Shown here piece by piece: positions 6,412 through 54,738 of a stretch of DNA of 64,000 nt. Made by a program: the position numbers and the translations under genes. The notes under the pieces were generated by a model. The model did not search any database and was not told the DNA's origin. It was given only the letters and a program-made list of their open reading frames with translations. The stretch comes from Planctomycetes bacterium syqfu (GTDB lineage: Bacteria; Planctomycetota; Phycisphaerae; Phycisphaerales; Phycisphaeraceae), in the NCBI GenBank assembly GCA_020974905.1, contig CP087563.1:7068001-7132000 (forward strand), written 5' to 3'. The first letter of the stretch is position 1, and the number at the start of each line of letters is the position of its first letter.

Positions 6412-7743
6412 ATGCTCGACAAACTCAAGCAAGCCGAATTACACGTCCACGTCGGTGGTTGCTTGTCCGCACAGGACCTGGCGGACATCGCTGCTGACTT
6501 CTATCGCGAGATTGATTGGCAACCTTTCATCGAAAATTACCAGTGTGTCTTCAGCCAAGTCGCGGACCCTATTGCATGGTTCGATGCTGCCGTTCTCAAC
6601 GAAAATCTCAACCCCCTGGAACAAGGCTACTATGTCACGGACAAAGACAGTGGTGACTTTGCCCGTTTCCAGGCACGCTTTGATTTACTGATCTACATCG
6701 CCCGGCATCTTCGGCAGAAGCTTGGGCATCAGGGACCGATGCTCGATCGCATTTTTGCGCGCCATCGCAATGAAGGTCTGCGGTATGTTGAATACCGCGC
6801 GATGTCCGCCATTGCGGATACCTACGAGAAGTTCAAAGCCTTCCACAGTGAGTATGCAACAGCATGCATGCAGGCCAGTGATCAGCAGATGACGGTGCGT
6901 TACATCGTGTCTCTGCCACGCGACAATGCCGTGCTGTCCTATCGCTGGCTTCGTCAACTGCTTGATGAATTGCCTCAACTCAGAACGGTGATAGTCGGGA
7001 TTGATTTTTGCTTTTGGGAAGAAGGCTATCCGCCTAAATCGATGACAGCGTTTTTTGATCAGTTGCATGCGGACAACGCGATGAATCCTGCCCAGGCGTT
7101 GGATGTGGTGTATCACGTGGGGGAAAGCTTCTTTGATAAATCGCTGGAAAGCGCGATCCGTTGGTGTCATGAAGCCGCGATGCTTGGCGCCAAACGGTTG
7201 GGGCATGCCATTGCCTTGGGCATGGACCCGCAGGTTGCCATCCGTCGGTGTGATGATGCCCATGTATCTGAGCCGGTGAGTGAACGTTTGGATCAGATTG
7301 CTTACGATTTGAAGCACGCCCGCGCGATGCATGCCTTTGGGATTAATGTCGATGTCGATGCGTTGATCGCAGAGCGTAACGATCTGGCAAGGCTGTCACC
7401 TCAAAGCAATCTCCGTCGGAGATATGATGCCAATCGATTGGCCGAGATTCGTCTGCGTCAGCGGTTTTTGCTTGACTGTCTGACTGCTTTGGGCACGGTC
7501 ATCGAAACCTGCCCGACTTCCAATCTGCGGATTGGCGGTGTCCCATCACCTGCGGATCATCCTGTGCATCGCTTTTTGGAAAGCGATGTGAATCTACTCA
7601 TCGCGGCAGATGATCCGGGGATTTTCAATGTCACCCTGGTCGACGAAGTGGACTGGGTCGCCCAACATTCGCAGATGGATCAAACGCAGTTAGCAAAGCG
7701 ATTAGGCGATCCCATGCGATTTGCATTACGCGCTTTGGAATAG
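6412..7743 (+). CDS. Adenosine deaminase-like metal-dependent hydrolase
   Basis: A 443-residue member of the adenosine/AMP deaminase family, expected to hydrolyse a purine-like amine with bound zinc. Family motifs appear in order: the metal-binding HVHVGG near residues 11-16, YHVGESF near 240, KRLGHA near 263, CPTSNLRIGG near 365, and a DDPGIF end motif near 400. The spacing fits the family, but the protein is longer than typical Add (about 330-350) and has extra sequence between the first two motifs. The substrate may therefore not be adenosine. ATG 6412 is chosen because HVHVGG begins right after it; no strong ribosome binding site is seen. Confidence 0.8.
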   Translation: MLDKLKQAELHVHVGGCLSAQDLADIAADFYREIDWQPFIENYQCVFSQVADPIAWFDAAVLNENLNPLEQGYYVTDKDSGDFARFQARFDLLIYIARHLRQKLGHQGPMLDRIFARHRNEGLRYVEYRAMSAIADTYEKFKAFHSEYATACMQASDQQMTVRYIVSLPRDNAVLSYRWLRQLLDELPQLRTVIVGIDFCFWEEGYPPKSMTAFFDQLHADNAMNPAQALDVVYHVGESFFDKSLESAIRWCHEAAMLGAKRLGHAIALGMDPQVAIRRCDDAHVSEPVSERLDQIAYDLKHARAMHAFGINVDVDALIAERNDLARLSPQSNLRRRYDANRLAEIRLRQRFLLDCLTALGTVIETCPTSNLRIGGVPSPADHPVHRFLESDVNLLIAADDPGIFNVTLVDEVDWVAQHSQMDQTQLAKRLGDPMRFALRALE

Positions 7744-16586: not shown

Positions 16587-16621
16587 ATGGGTGTCTGCAC
16601 GTTGTTGGTGATTCGATTTTT

Positions 16622-16656
16622 ACCGCAGAGGCGCAGAGAACTCAGAGCTAAGAGAG
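16622..16656 (+). repeat. CGCAGAG-type dispersed repeat (direct), left end of cassette 1
   Basis: Thirty-five bases starting ACCGCAGAGGCGCAGAG and ending AAGAGAG, made of imperfect 8-9 base units. The same family lies inverted at 17266-17291, with 3 mismatches over the 26 aligned bases. Other copies lie at 38060, 38921, 52329 and 53702. Confidence 0.75.
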
Positions 16657-16680
16657 TCAAGACTGTTTTGGTTATCTCAT

Positions 16681-16712
16681 CTCAGGCGAGCCGCGTTGTA
16701 TCAACGCGGGAT
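16681..16712. repeat. GGCGAG-hairpin repeat, copy 2
   Basis: Same CTCAGGCGAG lead-in as copy 1, but the stem is CCGCGTTG with CAACGCGG around TAT. The C-G to T-A change is compensated on both sides. It continues into ATTGAGCGAAGCTC, shared with the inverted copy near 38862. Confidence 0.6.
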
Positions 16713-16749
16713 TGAGCGAAGCTCAACATCTATTGCGGTTCAATTTTTA

Positions 16750-16787
16750 AACCGCCAAGACGCCAAGAACGCCAAGTTCAGAGAGAA
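16750..16787 (+). repeat. CGCCAAG-type dispersed repeat (direct)
   Basis: Three imperfect nine-base units starting AACCGCCAAGACGCCAAG and ending in AGAGAGAA, 16 bases before the orphan gene at 16803. A second copy is at 52267-52294. Confidence 0.65.
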
Positions 16788-16802
16788 TATTTAGGGGGAT
16801 AC

Positions 16803-17237
16803 ATGAATATTCAAAATGCAATTACAGCCTTAGGTCTCTTGGGAATTGGTGGCTTGATAACTATGTTTTTTCGCATCCGATGGGAACGGAAAAATGAAGT
16901 GTTATCTCACAAACAGGAATTTATGGAAACACGGTATAAATGTGTTATCCAATTAATGTATTCCGCTCTTGATTTTGATTCCAGAAATTTATTGCTCAGG
17001 CAATATTCCAGAAATTTCAATAATATCGATGAGTTAATTGACGAGTTAAAAGCAGAATGGAATCACATGATTCTGTATGCATCAGATGAAGTTTTGATTT
17101 CGGTTAAACAATTTATTCAAAATCCAACAATTGAGCATTATGGGCAATGCGCATCAGCTATGCGTAAAAATCTTTGGGGAGAGAAAGTATCAAAAGAAAT
17201 TCTCGTGCGCGATATTGTTGAACTTAACACATTGTAA
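16803..17237 (+). CDS. AT-rich orphan protein with an N-terminal membrane helix
   Basis: A 144-residue protein with one probable membrane segment at residues 8-24 (GLLGIGGLITMFF), then a soluble, helix-rich part with many charged residues. No domain is recognised. The base composition is far more AT-rich than that of nuoF before it or the gene after it. AGGGGG six bases before the ATG is a strong ribosome binding site. It sits alone between direct repeats on the left (16622-16787) and an inverted copy on the right (17250-17292), the arrangement seen around the orphans at 38.3 and 52.4 kb. Recent acquisition as a cassette is likely. The function is unknown. Confidence 0.65.
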   Translation: MNIQNAITALGLLGIGGLITMFFRIRWERKNEVLSHKQEFMETRYKCVIQLMYSALDFDSRNLLLRQYSRNFNNIDELIDELKAEWNHMILYASDEVLISVKQFIQNPTIEHYGQCASAMRKNLWGEKVSKEILVRDIVELNTL

Positions 17238-17249
17238 TATGTATTGTTT

Positions 17250-17292
17250 CTTCTCTGCCTTGAATCTCTGCGTCCTCGGCGCCTCTGCGGTT
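17250..17292 (-). repeat. CGCAGAG-type dispersed repeat (inverted), right end of cassette 1
   Basis: Read on the minus strand it starts AACCGCAGAGGCGCCGAGG and ends in TTCAAGGCAGAGAA. It begins exactly at the stop codon of the neighbouring minus-strand gene (17291-17293), so insertion occurred at that gene's 3' edge. Confidence 0.75.
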
Positions 17293-18820
17293 AACCTGCC
17301 TTGACTTCTACCACCTGTTTCACAACCGATTTCTTTTTCGACACACCCCATGCCAGCAGGGATGCGACGAGGATGGCTTGCATGCCGATGACAGGGATGC
17401 GGAAGCGTTCCAGGCCTACGAGTTGGGTGGTGAGGATGAAGTAGAGAATGATGCCACCCGCCAGTAGGATGGTTTTGATATTGCGTTGGAATAGCAGGGC
17501 AATGCAGCCGAGAACCATGCCGCCTGCCAATGCGAGATTCCACAGTGTCCAACCGACTGCCAGGTAAAATGCTGTCGGATCATGAATACCTTTGAGTGAG
17601 AAATCACCTTTGAGTAAGCGATCTTTGAGACCAGTGGGTTGGTACAGTCGACCGAAGCGAGCCATCATCGAGCCGGTGGAATGGTCGATGAGGAACTTGA
17701 CGGTGCTCCGAGCCATAAGCTTGCCATAGACCTTGGGATTATTGGTGATCGCTTCCTTGGTCTTCTCGTTCATGGCATCGAACAGGTTGACATTCTCCGG
17801 CGTCTGAGCCAGTTCGAGCATGCGTGCGTGAACCGTTGCGGGCCAATCTTTCTGGAAGTCACCACCTGCCTTGGCAATGTCGATGTAGGTGGTCGTGTAG
17901 AACAGACCATTGATCGAAGGCACGGTACTGATCTTGTATCCCAGACCGATCTGGTGATTGCGATAGATCCAACCCGCAGGCAGAACCAATGAACCGACCA
18001 GGGCACACAATGCTGCTGCGAAGGCTGCCTTGTTGCGAACACAGACACACAGCCAGATCGCGATGGCAAGGCCAAGCAGAATCGAGATCGGCCGGACTAT
18101 CGTCGCTGCACCAATGAGCAGTCCGCCGAGCATCGCCCATGCCAGGTTCTTGTACCCAACCACACACAGACAGATACCGCTCATGAGAATGGTGGTAAAG
18201 AGCGTTTCAGAAAGTACGGATTGAGATGCAAGAATATCCGCCGGATGCATGGCAACGATGACTGCTGCGGTCGTTGCTGCAAGGTTGTGTTTGAGTAGAT
18301 GTCGCGCCAGGATGAACACGATCAGGACATTAAGTCCAGCCAGAAAACACTGGGCAGGAATTGCAGCGGGGGTGGATAATCCCAACCATTCGAAGATGGA
18401 CAGGAAGATCGGGTAACCGGGCGTGCGGAAGACTTCCGGATACATCTGCTGCTTGTTGAGTGGCTCAAGTTCACCGCGTTGTTTACGCAGTTGGAACAGG
18501 GGGATGTGTACCACGCCTGAGTCTTCCGGACCGCGTGCAAAGCTGCCAAACTCTTTGAGCGTCTGAGCCAGTTCGACATAACGGCGGGAGTCCGGTTCGT
18601 AGGCTTGCTTGAAATTGGTAGCAGGTCCGGTGGTGAAGATCAGCAGTCGGATCGCGATGGCAAAGATGATGATCCCCCAGAGAATCACGGAGTTAACGCC
18701 ACTGGTTTGTGGCAACTCTTTGACCACGCCGGGGACGTGCTGCTTGCGTAACCCCAATGGATCGTCGGACACTTGAGCCTCGCTGCTGAGATTCAGATAG
18801 TTCATCATCTGCTCCGTCAT
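17291..18820 (-). CDS. Multispanning glycosyltransferase-like protein (GT39/PMT_2 type)
   Basis: A 509-residue inner-membrane protein with about ten hydrophobic helices from residue 45 onward. After the first helix comes an acidic loop with YEPDSRRYVELAQTL, and further on the FRTPGYPIFLS motif. Both are typical of the lipid-linked sugar transferases of the dolichyl-phosphate-mannose/ArnT superfamily. Such enzymes move a sugar from a polyprenyl carrier to protein, lipid or glycan outside the membrane. The acceptor is unknown. The 45 N-terminal residues are cytoplasmic and polar. It is a single gene, and its stop codon touches the inverted repeat at 17250-17292. Confidence 0.75.
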   Translation of the reverse strand: MTEQMMNYLNLSSEAQVSDDPLGLRKQHVPGVVKELPQTSGVNSVILWGIIIFAIAIRLLIFTTGPATNFKQAYEPDSRRYVELAQTLKEFGSFARGPEDSGVVHIPLFQLRKQRGELEPLNKQQMYPEVFRTPGYPIFLSIFEWLGLSTPAAIPAQCFLAGLNVLIVFILARHLLKHNLAATTAAVIVAMHPADILASQSVLSETLFTTILMSGICLCVVGYKNLAWAMLGGLLIGAATIVRPISILLGLAIAIWLCVCVRNKAAFAAALCALVGSLVLPAGWIYRNHQIGLGYKISTVPSINGLFYTTTYIDIAKAGGDFQKDWPATVHARMLELAQTPENVNLFDAMNEKTKEAITNNPKVYGKLMARSTVKFLIDHSTGSMMARFGRLYQPTGLKDRLLKGDFSLKGIHDPTAFYLAVGWTLWNLALAGGMVLGCIALLFQRNIKTILLAGGIILYFILTTQLVGLERFRIPVIGMQAILVASLLAWGVSKKKSVVKQVVEVKAG

Positions 18821-38033: not shown

Positions 38034-38059
38034 TGTCTTATTTCAAGGCAGTTTTTTTT

Positions 38060-38094
38060 ACCGCAGAGACACAGAGGACGCAGAGTTAAGAGAG
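38060..38094 (+). repeat. CGCAGAG-type repeat (direct), left end of cassette 2
   Basis: Thirty-five bases starting ACCGCAGAGACACAGAGG and ending TTAAGAGAG, after a run of eight T. The inverted partner at 38921-38955 differs at 4 of 35 positions. Confidence 0.8.
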
Positions 38095-38263
38095 AGTAAT
38101 TTCTTTGATGTCTTATTTCATGTGAGCTACGTCGTGCTAACGCGTGGTTGTTTTATTGCTTTTCAATTCTGCGATTAATTGATCCTTGCGTAGCAGATTT
38201 GCATCGCGACTTGTCATACAATGATTGCATTAAATACATCTCTATTTCAAAGGGGGAATCTCC

Positions 38264-38602
38264 ATGGGTTTATTCGAATTTATGTTTCCGGAACAAGCGC
38301 AGGCAGAACATCTACGCGCAATGCGAGAACTACAGCAGGATAAACAATGGCAACACAAACGCGAGCAACGTGCGGAAATGGCTTCGACGCATGCTCTGAA
38401 AATGCGTATTGATGAACTTGAGAAAGATCTTGGGTTTACAGTGCTTGTGTTGGCAAGTCTTCTATCTACACTTGATGAAAAGTCAGTACTCAAACGTAAA
38501 GATGTTGAAAAAGAACTTCGTGAACTTGATCTGATAGATGGCAAAGATGATAACAAGATCAGCACGGCGATTCTCAAACACTACTTCCGAAAACAGGATT
38601 GA
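38264..38602 (+). CDS. Small charged orphan protein, cassette 2
   Basis: A 112-residue protein starting MGLFEFMFPEQAQAEHL. The first 50 residues are rich in Gln, Arg and Glu and likely form a long helix or coiled coil. DLGFTVLVLASLLSTL follows, then a charged helix and KISTAILKHYF. No family is recognised. AAAGGGGG lies nine bases before the ATG. The stop overlaps a possible TTG start of the next frame, so the two may be translated together. It sits between the inverted repeats at 38060 and 38921. Confidence 0.6.
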   Translation: MGLFEFMFPEQAQAEHLRAMRELQQDKQWQHKREQRAEMASTHALKMRIDELEKDLGFTVLVLASLLSTLDEKSVLKRKDVEKELRELDLIDGKDDNKISTAILKHYFRKQD

Positions 38603-38661
38603 CTGTTACCGATAAACATCGAAAATGGGTTTGTTCATCCAATCCATCCGGGAACATCACA

Positions 38662-38850
38662 GTGAAAAAACTTCTCACCACACTGTATTGGGGCATTCAA
38701 ATCAACGCGGTCATCTGGTTGATTGTCGTAGCGCAATGTATTTCTGAATATCCATTGACAATCATTGGCTTGATTGTTGCCGCAGTGCTTGAACATCTTG
38801 CTGTCAAACGACTCGGCCCGGAACTTAAGCGCATGCCGGATGATGTGTGA
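38662..38850 (+). CDS. Small two-helix membrane protein, cassette 2
   Basis: A 62-residue protein from GTG 38662, starting MKKLLTTLYWGIQINAVIWL, with two hydrophobic helices (about residues 9-27 and 31-48) and a basic tail. An in-frame TTG at 38599, overlapping the previous stop, would lengthen it to 83 residues. No family is recognised. A soluble helical protein followed by a tiny membrane protein resembles some toxin-antitoxin or immunity pairs. This is only a structural analogy. Confidence 0.45.
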   Translation: MKKLLTTLYWGIQINAVIWLIVVAQCISEYPLTIIGLIVAAVLEHLAVKRLGPELKRMPDDV

Positions 38851-38861
38851 AATATATTTGA

Positions 38862-38907
38862 ACTTCGCTCAATCCCGCGGTGACATACCAGTTCGCCTGC
38901 GTTGAAA
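38862..38907 (-). repeat. GGCGAG-hairpin-type repeat (inverted), inside right end of cassette 2
   Basis: On the minus strand it carries CAGGCGA, then GCGGGATTGAGCGAAG, the same blocks as at 16681-16723, with a changed middle part. Confidence 0.5.
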
Positions 38908-38920
38908 CATCAAAGAAAAA

Positions 38921-38955
38921 CTCTCTTAACTCTGAGTCCTCTGCGCCTCAGCGGT
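38921..38955 (-). repeat. CGCAGAG-type repeat (inverted), right end of cassette 2
   Basis: The minus strand reads ACCGCTGAGGCGCAGAGG and ends TTAAGAGAG. It matches 38060-38094 at 31 of 35 positions. Confidence 0.8.
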
Positions 38956-38984
38956 GAAAAATGTTTTGTGGATGTCTTTCGAAA

Positions 38985-50826: not shown

Positions 50827-52248
50827 ATGACACATTTTACCGCCAATCCGCCATCGACTCCCACTGATAACGGTGATATCGCGCTTCCCGTGATGCAGGC
50901 CAAGGTGCCGTTCCACGTGATGACCAAGCCGATCGGGCCGATCTGTAACCTCGACTGCTCCTACTGTTTCTACCTCGAAAAGGAAGACCTGTGGGAGGGT
51001 AAATCCAACTTCCGCATGGATGAGGATCAACTCGAACGCTACATCAAGCAGTACATCGAAGGTCAACCCGCCAACACCCCCGAAATCGTCTTCGCCTTCC
51101 AGGGCGGTGAACCCACCCTCATGGGTGTCAAGTTCTTCGAAAAGGTCATGGAACTGGAGAAGAAATACGCCCGACCCGGCGTGCCTGTGACCAATGCGCT
51201 GCAGACCAACGCGACGCTGCTCGATGACGAATGGGGCAAATTCCTCAAAGACAACAATTTCCTCGTCGGTGTCTCCGTCGATGGCCCGGAAAAGATTCAT
51301 GACCTGCATCGTTATGACAAGCAGGGCGGTGGCAGCTTCAAGGACGTCATGCGTGGCATTGAAGTCCTGCAAAAACACGAAGTCGATTTCAACACCCTCA
51401 CCGTCGTCCAGGCAGACAACGGCAACTTCCCCGCTGAAATCTACGACTTCCTCCGATCCATCGGCTCAACGTTCTTCCAGTTCATCCCCATCGTCGAACA
51501 CGACCAGGTCCTCGAAGCCAAGAAAATCCAGCGACCCATCCTGCCGATCATCCAACCCGATGGCAAGAAAATCGGTGTCCGATCCGTCCAACCCAAACAG
51601 TGGGGCGATTTCCTCAACACCGTCTTTGACCGCTGGATCGAACGCGAAGATGTCGGCCGAATCTTCGTCCAACATTTCGACCTCATGCTCGGCATGGTCT
51701 ACGGCTACCCATCTTCCCTCTGCGTGCACTCGGAAACCTGCGGAAATGCCATGGACCTGGAACACGACGGCGGACTCTATGCCTGTGATCACTACGTCAG
51801 CCCCGAATACTATCTTGGCAATATCAAAGACAAAACCATTGCCGAGATGACCGAATCCGACCAGCAACGCAAGTTCGGCAACGACAAACGCGATACTCTC
51901 CCCGAGTACTGCAAGAAGTGTGACTACCTCAAATACTGCTGGGGTGCCTGCCCCAAAGACCGCATCTTAAAAACCCCCGATGGCGAAGACGGCTTAGCCT
52001 ATCTCTGCGAAGGCTACATGGCCTTCTACAAACACACGATCCCGACGTTCGAGAAGATGGCTGCTGTCTTGCGCATGGGCCGACCTGCCAGCGATTACAA
52101 ATACCTCGACCAAATCCAAGCCCAACAACACCGCCAAATGATGGCCCCACCCCCACGCACACAACCCAGACAAAAAATCGGCCGCAACGATCCCTGCCCC
52201 TGCGGCAGTGGCAAAAAATATAAGCAATGTTGTGGGAAGAAGGGGTGA
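50827..52248 (+). CDS. Anaerobic sulfatase-maturating enzyme with C-terminal SEC-C motif
   Basis: A 473-residue radical-SAM enzyme that converts a Cys or Ser of sulfatases to formylglycine. The radical-SAM motif CNLDCSYC is at residues 40-47, and the substrate-base region [12 protein letters not shown] near 90. The SPASM cysteines are in the C-terminal half ([26 protein letters not shown]) and bind two auxiliary clusters. At the end, residues about 451-472 form a SEC-C zinc motif ([20 protein letters not shown]), as in SecA tails. Planctomycetes carry many sulfatases for sulfated polysaccharides, though none lies in this window. There is no usable ribosome binding site; translation may be leaderless. 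Confidence 0.93.
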
Positions 52249-52266
52249 GACAGAACATTTTGTTTG

Positions 52267-52294
52267 AACCGCCAAGACGTCAAGAGCGCCAAGT
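52267..52294 (+). repeat. CGCCAAG-type dispersed repeat (direct), copy 2
   Basis: AACCGCCAAGACGTCAAGAG and one more unit, continuing to TTCCAAGGCAGAGAA. It is close to 16750-16787 and just outside the left arm of cassette 3. Confidence 0.65.
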
Positions 52295-52307
52295 TCCAAG
52301 GCAGAGA

Positions 52308-52362
52308 AAGACAGCAAGGCATTTTTCACCGCAGAGACGCAGAGGTCGCGGAGGTAAGAGAG
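52308..52362 (+). repeat. Left terminal inverted repeat of cassette 3
   Basis: A 55-base arm starting AAGACAGCAAGGCATTTTTC and ending AAGAGAG. It contains the CGCAGAG unit repeat. It pairs with 53702-53757, with three substitutions and one inserted base. Confidence 0.85.
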
Positions 52363-52393
52363 AAGAACAGTGAGTATATCAGTCTTAACTAAA

Positions 52394-53560
52394 CTACTGT
52401 GCAAATTTAGTCATTGCTTTTTCCATAATTTGCTTCATACACTTGCTATCACCCGATTCGTCAGTTCCAATAGTTACACTCCAGCCACATCCTTTTCTTA
52501 CATCATTTTTTTCGACAATGCGCTTGCATAAAGGGCACATTTCACGAGACTGTTGTTCAATGAAACTTAAAACAAATGTTTTATCTTGGATGTCATCAAA
52601 ACAAGCTGGCAATACTTCGTCTACACTGATTGGAGTAATGCTCTTGCTGTCATCCTCATCAAACAAAATCGTAATGATGCCAATTCCATTGTTGGAACAC
52701 AATTGAACGTATGTTTTAAACCGTTCTTTGTCGAAATGTTCCTCGTCAAACATTGGAATTATTATGTATGAGTAGTTAGATGAGGCTTTGTAATTAATAG
52801 CTTGGCTTATTGCTTCAGAAACTGATGTGATTTTATTACTTGCTTTGAGTTCGAAAGCATAAATGTCAATTCTGTCTTCAGATATTCCTTTTTCTATCTG
52901 ATATCCAATAAAATCAATATTTTGATATTTTCCCGCTTTGCGAGATGCTTGTGTGTGATCAATCTTGATGCCATCGAATCTTCCTCGTAATAAAGGAAGG
53001 ATTTTTTCGCCAAGACTAATTTCGTCTTGTTTTTTGTTTTCGGTTCCATACACAAACTCGGTTATCTTTTTTGTGAAGTCAGTACCTCTTCCAGGCTTGA
53101 ACTTGAAGCTTTTGTTTCGTTTTGTATATGCAGTGAATCCTTTTTGTGCATCAGAATAATTTATGTTGCTGGTGGCGTTTTCAAATAACTTGTACAAAAC
53201 ACTTAGTTGCTCTTCTAGGACTTTGATAAAATCTCCGCTGTCCCGGCTAAAAATTGCTTTTGCGATCTCTTCGCCGATATCTTCACGCAGTCTGACTTTT
53301 GAGATTGCGATTGGGCCTCCACGTCCCGGGCTGGGGGTTGGATCAAATCCCCAATTGCTTAGTTCTATACATAATTTTTCTTTGAATGATTTCCAGTCAG
53401 TTGTAAGTTCACCACCGGTGAGTGTTTTGATTGCGTCACTATCATCTGCAATTAATGCATCAAACTCACTTGCGGTGATCGAGCAATCTTTTTTGTTGCT
53501 ATCGATTTTGTCTATTGCTTTGACAACTTCACAGAATTTATCAAGAACTGATTTTGACAT
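52394..53560 (-). CDS. AT-rich orphan with predicted PD-(D/E)XK nuclease-like core
   Basis: A 388-residue soluble protein. A helical N-terminal half (about 1-200) precedes NIDFIGYQ (D216), then IYAFELKASN with E237 and K239 and Q253-AINY. This gives the D...E-x-K...Q pattern of PD-(D/E)XK nucleases, such as restriction enzymes. C-terminal cysteines (CPLCKRIV near 347, then CGW and C further on) may bind zinc. This is a motif reading, not a family match. The gene is strongly AT-rich, alone, and enclosed by about 55-base inverted repeats at 52308 and 53702. A defence or mobile-element role is plausible. A minus-strand terminator at 53655-53697 shields it from thiG transcription. Confidence 0.6.
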   Translation of the reverse strand: MSKSVLDKFCEVVKAIDKIDSNKKDCSITASEFDALIADDSDAIKTLTGGELTTDWKSFKEKLCIELSNWGFDPTPSPGRGGPIAISKVRLREDIGEEIAKAIFSRDSGDFIKVLEEQLSVLYKLFENATSNINYSDAQKGFTAYTKRNKSFKFKPGRGTDFTKKITEFVYGTENKKQDEISLGEKILPLLRGRFDGIKIDHTQASRKAGKYQNIDFIGYQIEKGISEDRIDIYAFELKASNKITSVSEAISQAINYKASSNYSYIIIPMFDEEHFDKERFKTYVQLCSNNGIGIITILFDEDDSKSITPISVDEVLPACFDDIQDKTFVLSFIEQQSREMCPLCKRIVEKNDVRKGCGWSVTIGTDESGDSKCMKQIMEKAMTKFAQ

Positions 53561-53654
53561 TTATTATCCCCGTTTGGAATTTATGGAAATGTTGTAAATG
53601 AGATCATAAAAAAGAAATGCATGCCTCGTGCCCGTTATTATGCAATCATTCAAT

Positions 53655-53697
53655 AAAAAAACAAGCATGATGGATATTTGCTTATCCAACATGCTTG
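53655..53697 (-). terminator. Minus-strand terminator between thiG and cassette gene
   Basis: CAAGCATG pairs with CATGCTTG and TGGATA with TATCCA around six bases. Seven T follow on the minus strand. It ends transcription entering from thiG and lies just inside the right arm of cassette 3. Confidence 0.8.
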
Positions 53698-53701
53698 ATA
53701 A

Positions 53702-53757
53702 CTCTCTTAACTCCGCGTCCTCTGCGTCTCTGCGGTAAAAAATGCCTTGTCTGTCTT
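53702..53757 (-). repeat. Right terminal inverted repeat of cassette 3
   Basis: On the minus strand it starts AAGACAGACAAGGCATTTTT and ends AAGAGAG, almost identical to 52308-52362. It lies 18 bases past the thiG stop. Confidence 0.85.
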
Positions 53758-53775
53758 GATAAAAACAAACAAAAC

Positions 53776-54621
53776 TCACTCACCCGGGATATACGAGATC
53801 ACACCATCCCACGGGCTTGACGCGGTGGCGTAGAGTTTTTTGCCGATGCGGCCGGAGAGGTATGCGTCGCGGCCGGCGTTGATGGCGTGGTACATGGCGC
53901 GGGCCATCTTCACGGCATCCTGGGCATGGGCGATGCCGGTGTTCAGCAGCACGCCGTCGGCACCGAGTTCCATGGCATGCACCACGTCCGATGCCGTGCC
54001 CACGCCGGCGTCGACGATGACGGGGTACGTGCTGTCACCATCCTTGAGCAGTTCGAGAATGATGCGGATGGCGTTGGGGTTGAGCACGCCTTGCCCTGAA
54101 CCAATCGGTGAACCGGCAGGCATCACCGCAGCGGCGCCGGCTTCCTTGATCTTCACAGCCATGACGGGATCGTCACTGGTGTAGCAGAGCACGTTAAAAC
54201 CGTCTTTGACCAGTTCCTTGGTGGCTTCGAGCGTGCCGACCGGATCGGGGAGGAGGGTTTTCTTGTCGGCCAGGACTTCGAGCTTGACCCATTCCTTGCC
54301 GGGGTTGTCGAGTTGGTCGAGGATTTCTCGGCCAAGGCGAGCGACGCGCACCGCATCGTCAGCCGTGAAGCAACCGGCGGTGTTGGGGAGGATGGTGTAC
54401 TTGTCGGTGTCAATGAAGTCCAGCAGCGATTCGCCTTTTTCATTGACCAGACGTTCACGACGGACCGCGACGGTGACGACATCCGTGCCGGAGACTTGGA
54501 GGGCTTCCTGCATGGTGGGGTAGTCTTTGTACTTGCCGGTCCCGACGATGAGTCGGCTTTGAAGTTGACGACCTGCGACGATGAGGGGATTGTCCACGAC
54601 GGTGGTATTGTCAGTGCTCAT
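53776..54621 (-). CDS. thiG: Thiazole synthase ThiG
   Basis: A 281-residue TIM-barrel enzyme forming the thiazole ring of thiamine from deoxyxylulose phosphate, dehydroglycine and ThiS thiocarboxylate. It has [13 protein letters not shown] near residue 22, TVAVRRERL near 47, [29 protein letters not shown] and [23 protein letters not shown] 54621 follows AAGGA. It lies downstream of thiS on the same strand. The other thi genes are elsewhere. Confidence 0.95.
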
Positions 54622-54674
54622 GGGTGAGTCCTTTGAGGGTTGGATATGTGTGATTCGTGTATTTTTCAAGGCAC

Positions 54675-54696
54675 CCCTGGGGGTTAAACCCCAGGG
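54675..54696. repeat. GC-rich palindromic element between thiS and thiG
   Basis: CCCTGGGG and CCCCAGGG around GTTAAA. On the minus strand its flank ATGCACATTAAAGCC matches that of the element at 6356-6377. It sits inside the thiS-thiG unit. Confidence 0.6.
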
Positions 54697-54738
54697 CTTT
54701 AATGTGCATGCGGGAGTTTTTTGCAATAGAGCAGGGGA

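Follow-up and report, generated by a model that had tools for sequence, protein, structure and literature searches.

A predicted single-gene cassette between iteron-bearing arms, with a probable restriction-like nuclease as cargo, in a planctomycete genome

Single AT-rich orphan genes are exchanged as units in the gene cassettes of integrons. In Geobacter metallireducens, paired sites are annotated as predicted binding sites of a global regulator; each site consists of three tandem repeats, and the two members of a pair are on opposite strands at a variable distance (PMC2700814). A review on miniature inverted-repeat transposable elements (MITEs) describes a resistance cassette mobilized in trans by a MITE (PMC10969869), and the 23S rRNA intervening sequences of Coxiella contain a small S23/IVP gene between stem-forming terminal inverted repeats and are excised by RNase III (PMC4990558). 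Here we analyzed a 64,000-nucleotide stretch of DNA (the window) from Planctomycetes bacterium syqfu (assembly GCA_020974905.1, contig CP087563.1, positions 7,068,001 to 7,132,000), in which an element of 1.45 kb, at window positions 52,308 to 53,757, holds one gene between inverted arms. We lean, though not strongly, towards reading this element as an exchangeable single-gene cassette that lacks a transposase of its own and carries a probable restriction-like nuclease. Loci are given below as L-numbers, the source genome as G000 and its congeners as G294, G295, and G296.

The first-pass annotation of this DNA had claimed nearly identical inverted arms of about 55 bases around a single AT-rich gene, and both claims were borne out. 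The arms are 55 and 56 bases long (Table 1), and an alignment of the left arm to the reverse complement of the right one has three mismatches and a single 1-base gap; an ungapped stretch of 48 bases is 94% complementary. The arm pair scores 68.2 bits. When the same geometry was placed at random in the window 300 times, only two placements reached this value, both on the element itself, and the next-best one gave 23.8 bits. The interior has a G+C content of 36.4% vs. 52.3% for the window, and the enclosed gene has 388 codons. Other interior open reading frames (ORFs) of at least 80 amino acids (aa) overlap this gene on the opposite strand. As there is no second gene in the cassette, it encodes neither a transposase nor an integrase.

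The arms belong to an abundant family. Their 18-base core has six matches in the window at up to 3 mismatches, vs. a mean of 0.03 in 100 shuffles, and a 17-base core has 61 matches at up to 2 mismatches in G000 (a single contig of 7,376,598 bases) vs. two for the reversed control. The arms follow a common plan, with an outer T-rich stretch that often follows CAAGGCA or CAAGACA, about three iterons next to it (CGCAGAG, for example), and often AAGAGAG on the inside; the iteron unit of cassette arms is 7–9 bases, with about three direct repeats per arm. Loci were retrieved for holding an arm and partner arms were found with a profile built from arms; within this set, the facing arrangement accounts for 30 of 35 pairs of neighboring arms in G000; the corresponding counts are 28 of 35 for G294, 28 of 40 for G296, and 5 of 5 for G302, which sums to 91 of 115 (binomial p 6e-34 vs. 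one quarter). Later short retrievals, kept out of this sum, gave a further five facing arms out of six. Among 86 facing pairs in three congeneric genomes, 59 enclose fewer than 210 bases, and 16 have an interior longer than 250 bases that contains an ORF of 85 aa or more, at a G+C content of 34–47%. Homology among these 16 ORF cassettes was found for one pair only, located at the same site. Two further gene-bearing elements with arms of the same type lie within the window (Table 1) and are referred to by their first positions, 16616 and 38054.

Four congeneric genomes carry different contents at the site of the element. G294 has arms around a 382-aa ORF and G296 has arms around a 144-aa ORF, neither of which matched the 388-aa protein in blastp, and G295 has a short gene-less hairpin with CGCCAAG-type arms. 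The right arm and its outer flank are retained in G294, with 98.6% identity over 73 bases. The initial view of the element is supported in part, namely for a discrete repeat-bounded unit with a probable PD-(D/E)XK nuclease, and the different contents of the four genomes show that what it holds turns over; the enzyme may serve defense or move the element. Eight G000 sites with an ORF had both flanks on one contig of a congener, which gave 15 comparisons: nine with a different ORF, three without an ORF of 80 aa, one without the element, and two with the same gene. Site 38054 was excluded because only its left flank was matched in the congeners, and so was L392, the flanks of which are split between contigs in G294 and rearranged in G296. 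Two sites that are gene-less in G000 are occupied elsewhere, one by a gene of the GxxExxY family (PF13366) in G296 (L058, L118) and the other by a 110-aa ORF in G294 (L063, L147). At site 16616, both flanks including the arms align at 89–91% to G294, while the ORFs between them gave no blastp match; G296 has at this site a 135-aa ORF which by eye resembles that of G294. A likeness of this G294 ORF to SMI1/KNR4 proteins was not supported by Pfam and was dropped. At site 38054, G294 has the left flank and arms of the same type, followed by a different ORF, lipoprotein-like by eye.

The D...E-x-K...Q pattern and the C-terminal cysteine cluster that had been predicted for the 388-aa protein are both present, the former as D216, E237-L-K239, and Q253 and the latter as C320, C342, C345, C358, and C374. 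The order of the residues is that expected for a PD-(D/E)XK core. Searches in Pfam and NCBIfam gave no family above cut-off, and PADLOC, which covers known anti-phage defense families, gave 0 families up to E 1. Three weak matches were obtained in PHROGs (best E 0.041) and two among PDB sequences (best E 0.3), and no relatives were found among plasmids, phages, and viral contigs. Searches of 294 genomes of the phylum and 397 genomes of the class, G000 included in each, yielded one other weak match (L067, E 7e-4) in the former set and two matches (L443, E 0.004, and L444) in the latter. L444 was dropped as a relative since its match is limited to residues 103–169, while L443 has the core in common with the 388-aa protein. 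An alignment of the 388-aa protein with L067 and L443 has 25 invariant columns, including D216, G219, E237, K239, Q253, A254, and G292-I293-G294. L067 contains a HARE-HTH domain (PF05066), the name of which refers partly to restriction endonucleases; it shares with the 388-aa protein the core motif D...ExK...QA...GIG, but the latter has a different N-terminus and late cysteines of its own. AlphaFold models computed from the single sequence without an alignment had a mean predicted local distance difference test (pLDDT) value of 36 for the full protein and 42 for the core alone. The order of helices and strands over residues 183–300 fits alpha-beta-beta-beta-alpha-beta in one model, with a mean pLDDT of only 36. 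Of the nuclease prediction, the motif held in two distant relatives, and models of such low pLDDT do not confirm the fold. The protein is probably a PD-(D/E)XK restriction-like nuclease, which would cut foreign DNA. As a single-gene unit, the cassette contains no methyltransferase partner, the rest of the genome lying outside this check.

A check proposed at the outset, on whether homologues of the protein are flanked by the same repeats, had a mixed outcome. The gene of L067 has no arm-like flanks and none were seen at L443, the gene of which starts about 510 bases from the sequence edge, near a contig end; homologues of the 388-aa protein are therefore not regularly framed. Unrelated nucleases, on the other hand, are framed by such arms, namely a BglII-family ORF in L038 (32.3 bits, cut-off 26) and GxxExxY genes. 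We scanned 15 of the 16 ORF cassettes against Pfam, the 115-aa ORF of L170 being outside the scan, and only L038 and L114, a GNAT enzyme, had a match above cut-off. L391 and L118, both GxxExxY cassettes, do not belong to these 16. Judged by such family matches and motifs, nucleases recur as cargo and most cargos have no family label. Since most facing pairs enclose fewer than 210 bases, the 388-aa nuclease is more likely cargo than a general driver of the arms.

The arms form an abundant family marking intergenic sites, and the enclosed contents turn over. As to how the cassette moves, we infer that the segment between the arms is replaced when incoming DNA, arm-bearing as well, recombines within the arms or next to them; the GxxExxY nuclease, itself a frequent cargo, would perhaps help the exchange in trans. 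Thirteen arms at sites with swapped contents were compared with G294, and four of them lay above the 95th percentile of random arm pairs (random mean 0.77): the right arm of the element (0.98), two arms of site 16616 (0.95 and 0.93), and the right arm of L032 (1.00). The left arm of L032 is of the CGCCAAG subtype in G000 vs. CGCAGAG in G294, but both genomes have the same right arm and inner hairpin there. At some sites one or both arms thus stay while the contents are swapped, a pattern consistent with replacement by breakage within an arm or next to it.

Several observations speak against this reading. Three of the 13 arms (the left arm of the element, the inner left arm of 16616, and the right arm of L034) are at 0.90, a value reached by 5.6% of random pairs, and six are no closer than random arms (0.78–0.88); site 38054, with its unmatched right flank, supplies two of these six and none of the four close arms. 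At a site which by eye lies between dnaJ-like and groEL-like genes, G000 (L342 1420-1985) has a gene of the four-helix family (PF05635) in GGGGTT-type arms and G294 and G296 (L431, L432) have a GxxExxY gene in CACAGAG-type arms; as the two cassettes have quite different arms, arm-to-arm recombination is no explanation there. The two comparisons that retained the same gene both concern GxxExxY in G296 (L391 and L390, with 75 and 82% identity). All comparisons are between species, exchange within one species was not seen, and the congeners G294–G296 are draft assemblies. The nuclease motif rests on three sequences, with models at pLDDT 36 and 42.

The dispersal of the arms could also be that of a MITE-like non-autonomous transposon, in which the arms would be ends for a transposase encoded elsewhere, the gene a passenger, and the short gene-less pairs miniature forms. 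Inverted ends, many dispersed copies, and the predominance of short gene-less forms would agree with this, as would the patchy presence of the arm core in relatives (14 of 61 genomes, G000 included) and the lack of the element at some sites in a congener. We aligned eight sites with a congener lacking the element or having a much shorter interval there, and none of them (L035, L049, L050, L391, L064, L046, L052, and L047) showed a clean, unoccupied site with duplicated target sequence, with flanks that are much diverged and, for L052 and L047, a left flank that did not align. Also, arms persist while contents change at some sites, and a matching transposase is not known, a genome-wide transposase search not having been made. 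We consider such a transposon an unlikely explanation.

Nuclease-driven homing is another explanation, in which a cargo nuclease would cut gene-less arm pairs and repair would copy the cassette in through arm homology. Recurrent nuclease cargo families (GxxExxY, the BglII-family ORF, and the 388-aa protein) and the abundance of gene-less arm pairs as targets are consistent with it, and two short elements each have a GxxExxY cassette as their counterpart in another species (L058/L118; L124/L391). Yet, among the 16 cassettes nuclease support was obtained for the 388-aa and BglII-family ORFs only, the other 13 that were scanned having no Pfam nuclease match above cut-off. Homing appears very improbable to us, and the exchangeable cassette is retained as the preferred reading.

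GxxExxY and four-helix genes were examined across Planctomycetota together with ParE (PF05016), another small accessory family. The four-helix family is that of 23S_rRNA_IVP (S23/IVP). For each family we took the best-scoring 30 loci and dropped those cut by a contig end (six GxxExxY, three four-helix, and one ParE). Results showed inverted repeats in the flanks of 22 of 24 GxxExxY loci (1 of 48 in the shifted control) and 25 of 27 four-helix loci (0 of 54), vs. none of 29 ParE loci (1 of 58); under other settings the counts were 19–22, 20–25, and 0–1, respectively. The best repeat lag was 8 or 9 for 16 of the 22 GxxExxY arms, whereas 18 of the 25 four-helix arms had one of 7 or 14, and the lag was better than in shuffles at 0.05 for 14 of 22 and 25 of 25 arms, respectively, vs. 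only 8 of 18 arms in other phyla. These data bear on a further explanation, by which the arms would be standing structural or regulatory repeats, such as repetitive extragenic palindromic (REP)-like hairpins, protein-binding sites, or terminators, between which genes landed by chance. The prevalence of gene-less pairs would favor it, and several short pairs are kept at the same site in G294 (L040, L043, L045, L061, and L062); similar paired repeats in G. metallireducens were, moreover, interpreted as global regulator binding sites (PMC2700814). Chance landing is, however, at odds with arm-like flanks at nearly all GxxExxY and four-helix loci and at no ParE locus. Orientation of the genes flanking the elements (28 of 29 elements could be assigned) was at background level, with 4 of 28 divergent vs. 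28 of 177 (p 1.0) and 9 of 28 convergent vs. 37 of 177 (p 0.22), which does not favor the arms acting as terminators or promoters. We find standing repeats with chance genes a distinctly unlikely account.

Loci of the same kind occur outside the phylum. Of 30 GxxExxY loci from genomes picked for the arm core, seven were dropped and 17 of the remaining 23 were flanked by inverted repeats (control 2 of 46; 16–18 of 24 under other settings). The exact 18-base core was found in at least 118 stretches, from many phyla by their record titles, with 80 loci among the matches listed; among these listed matches, 66 neighboring arms comprise 41 facing, 10 in opposite order, and 15 in the same direction, one of the loci being from G294. 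L214, from Anaerolineaceae, has a GxxExxY gene between its arms, and L236 has a 154-aa ORF which is nuclease-like by eye only and had no Pfam match. GxxExxY was present in 13 of the 14 relatives with the core vs. 23 of 47 without it (Fisher p 0.004, uncorrected for genome size, completeness, and kinship), and in 23 of 26 genomes picked for the 18-base core, a set without a matched control. Overall, GxxExxY was present in 139 of 294 Planctomycetota genomes and four-helix genes in 58 of 119. It is conceivable, and we put it forward as a tentative and rather doubtful proposal, that these elements form an unnamed widespread mobile class of iteron-armed single-gene cassettes exchanged at standing intergenic docking sites in many phyla, for which GxxExxY and four-helix genes would provide the machinery and the 388-aa nuclease would be a defense-type cargo. 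Separately, the longest GxxExxY frames of L431 (539-931) and L432 (498-890) open with NHRGTETQR, which is translated arm, and predicted gene starts in such loci may be false.

The remaining features of the locus are listed in Table 1. A minus-strand terminator had been noted just inside the right arm; the hairpin there folds well (-18.8 kcal/mol, z -5.0, followed by seven U) and was absent from the output of a simple terminator scan. It could halt transcription arriving from the thiG-like gene at 53776-54726, which together with a radical-SAM gene at 50827-52248 flanks the element, both being named by eye. The second, outer left arm has no inverted partner beyond the right arm in G000, and its counterpart in G296 is on the right side. 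The element is not a 23S rRNA intervening sequence, as its site is between two protein genes and its cargo is not PF05635; across 52000–54000, no Rfam match was as high as the gathering score of its family. Further observations concern arms at other loci. Nested arms were found at L047 9043-9268 and L052 4250-4497, where a CGCGAAG-type outer repeat lies beside a CGCAGAG-type inner arm, as if elements stack. In L050 (5627-6947), an ORF that by eye is IS110-type transposase-like lies close to the arm at 6909-6947. L052 7022-7194 and the G294 loci L142, L148, L128, L133, and L130 are alike over about 150 bases (72–81% identity) beyond their arms, across sites and species, and are perhaps a separate short repeat family.

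Table 1. Positions of the element's features and of two further arm-framed elements in the window
Feature	Position	Strand	Description	Basis
Left arm	52308..52362	+	Outer AAGACAGCAAGGCATTTTT, then CGCAGAG-type iterons, AAGAGAG innermost	Profile match, E 2.3e-12
Right arm	53702..53757	-	Inverted copy of the left arm	Profile match, E 5.8e-14
Cargo gene	52394..53560	-	388 aa, probable PD-(D/E)XK nuclease with late cysteines	ORF list and motif
Possible ribosome-binding site	53568..53571	-	GGGG, 7 bases ahead of the cargo start codon	Sequence reading
Terminator-like hairpin	53662..53697	-	Followed by seven T; between right arm and cargo start	Folding, z -5.0
Second, outer left arm	52263..52296	+	CGCCAAG subtype	Sequence; comparison with G296
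Second arm-framed element	16616-17297		ORF of 144 aa at 16803-17237 (+)	Arm profile
Third arm-framed element	38054-38961		ORFs of 112 aa and 83 aa	Arm profile

Should the cassettes prove to be mobile units, they would account for two widespread and so far unexplained families of small genes, GxxExxY and four-helix, as well as a stock of AT-rich orphan genes and the Geobacter paired iteron repeats that were taken as regulatory. The interiors between arms would then be a simple handle for new nucleases and accessory genes. We found no description of a unit with one gene between iteron arms, the contents of which are swapped at standing sites across many phyla, in the literature covered, which was mostly without subscription journals and supplements. 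The arms as such have counterparts in Geobacter. Read on the other strand, the class 2 repeats of Geobacter resemble CACGGAGA-type arms such as those of L320, and their architecture, compared by legends rather than alignments, is shared by the arms here, with about three tandem 8–9-base repeats per arm on opposite strands at a variable distance; however, they were interpreted as IHF/HU-type regulatory sites, and the accessible part of the source describes neither single-gene cargo nor exchange of contents (PMC2700814). MITEs have in common with the arms inverted ends, the lack of their own transposase, and many dispersed copies (PMC10969869). They differ from the present elements, which have arms built as iteron arrays, contents exchanged at standing sites, and no target duplication seen. 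The 23S rRNA intervening sequences contain a gene of the four-helix family, for which arms were present at 25 of the 27 loci described above, but they lie inside 23S rRNA, whereas the element is placed between protein genes and holds another gene. Finally, the element resembles integron cassettes in being a single AT-rich orphan gene, yet it has two inverted arms per unit in place of one attC, and its relatives occupy dispersed sites rather than an array.
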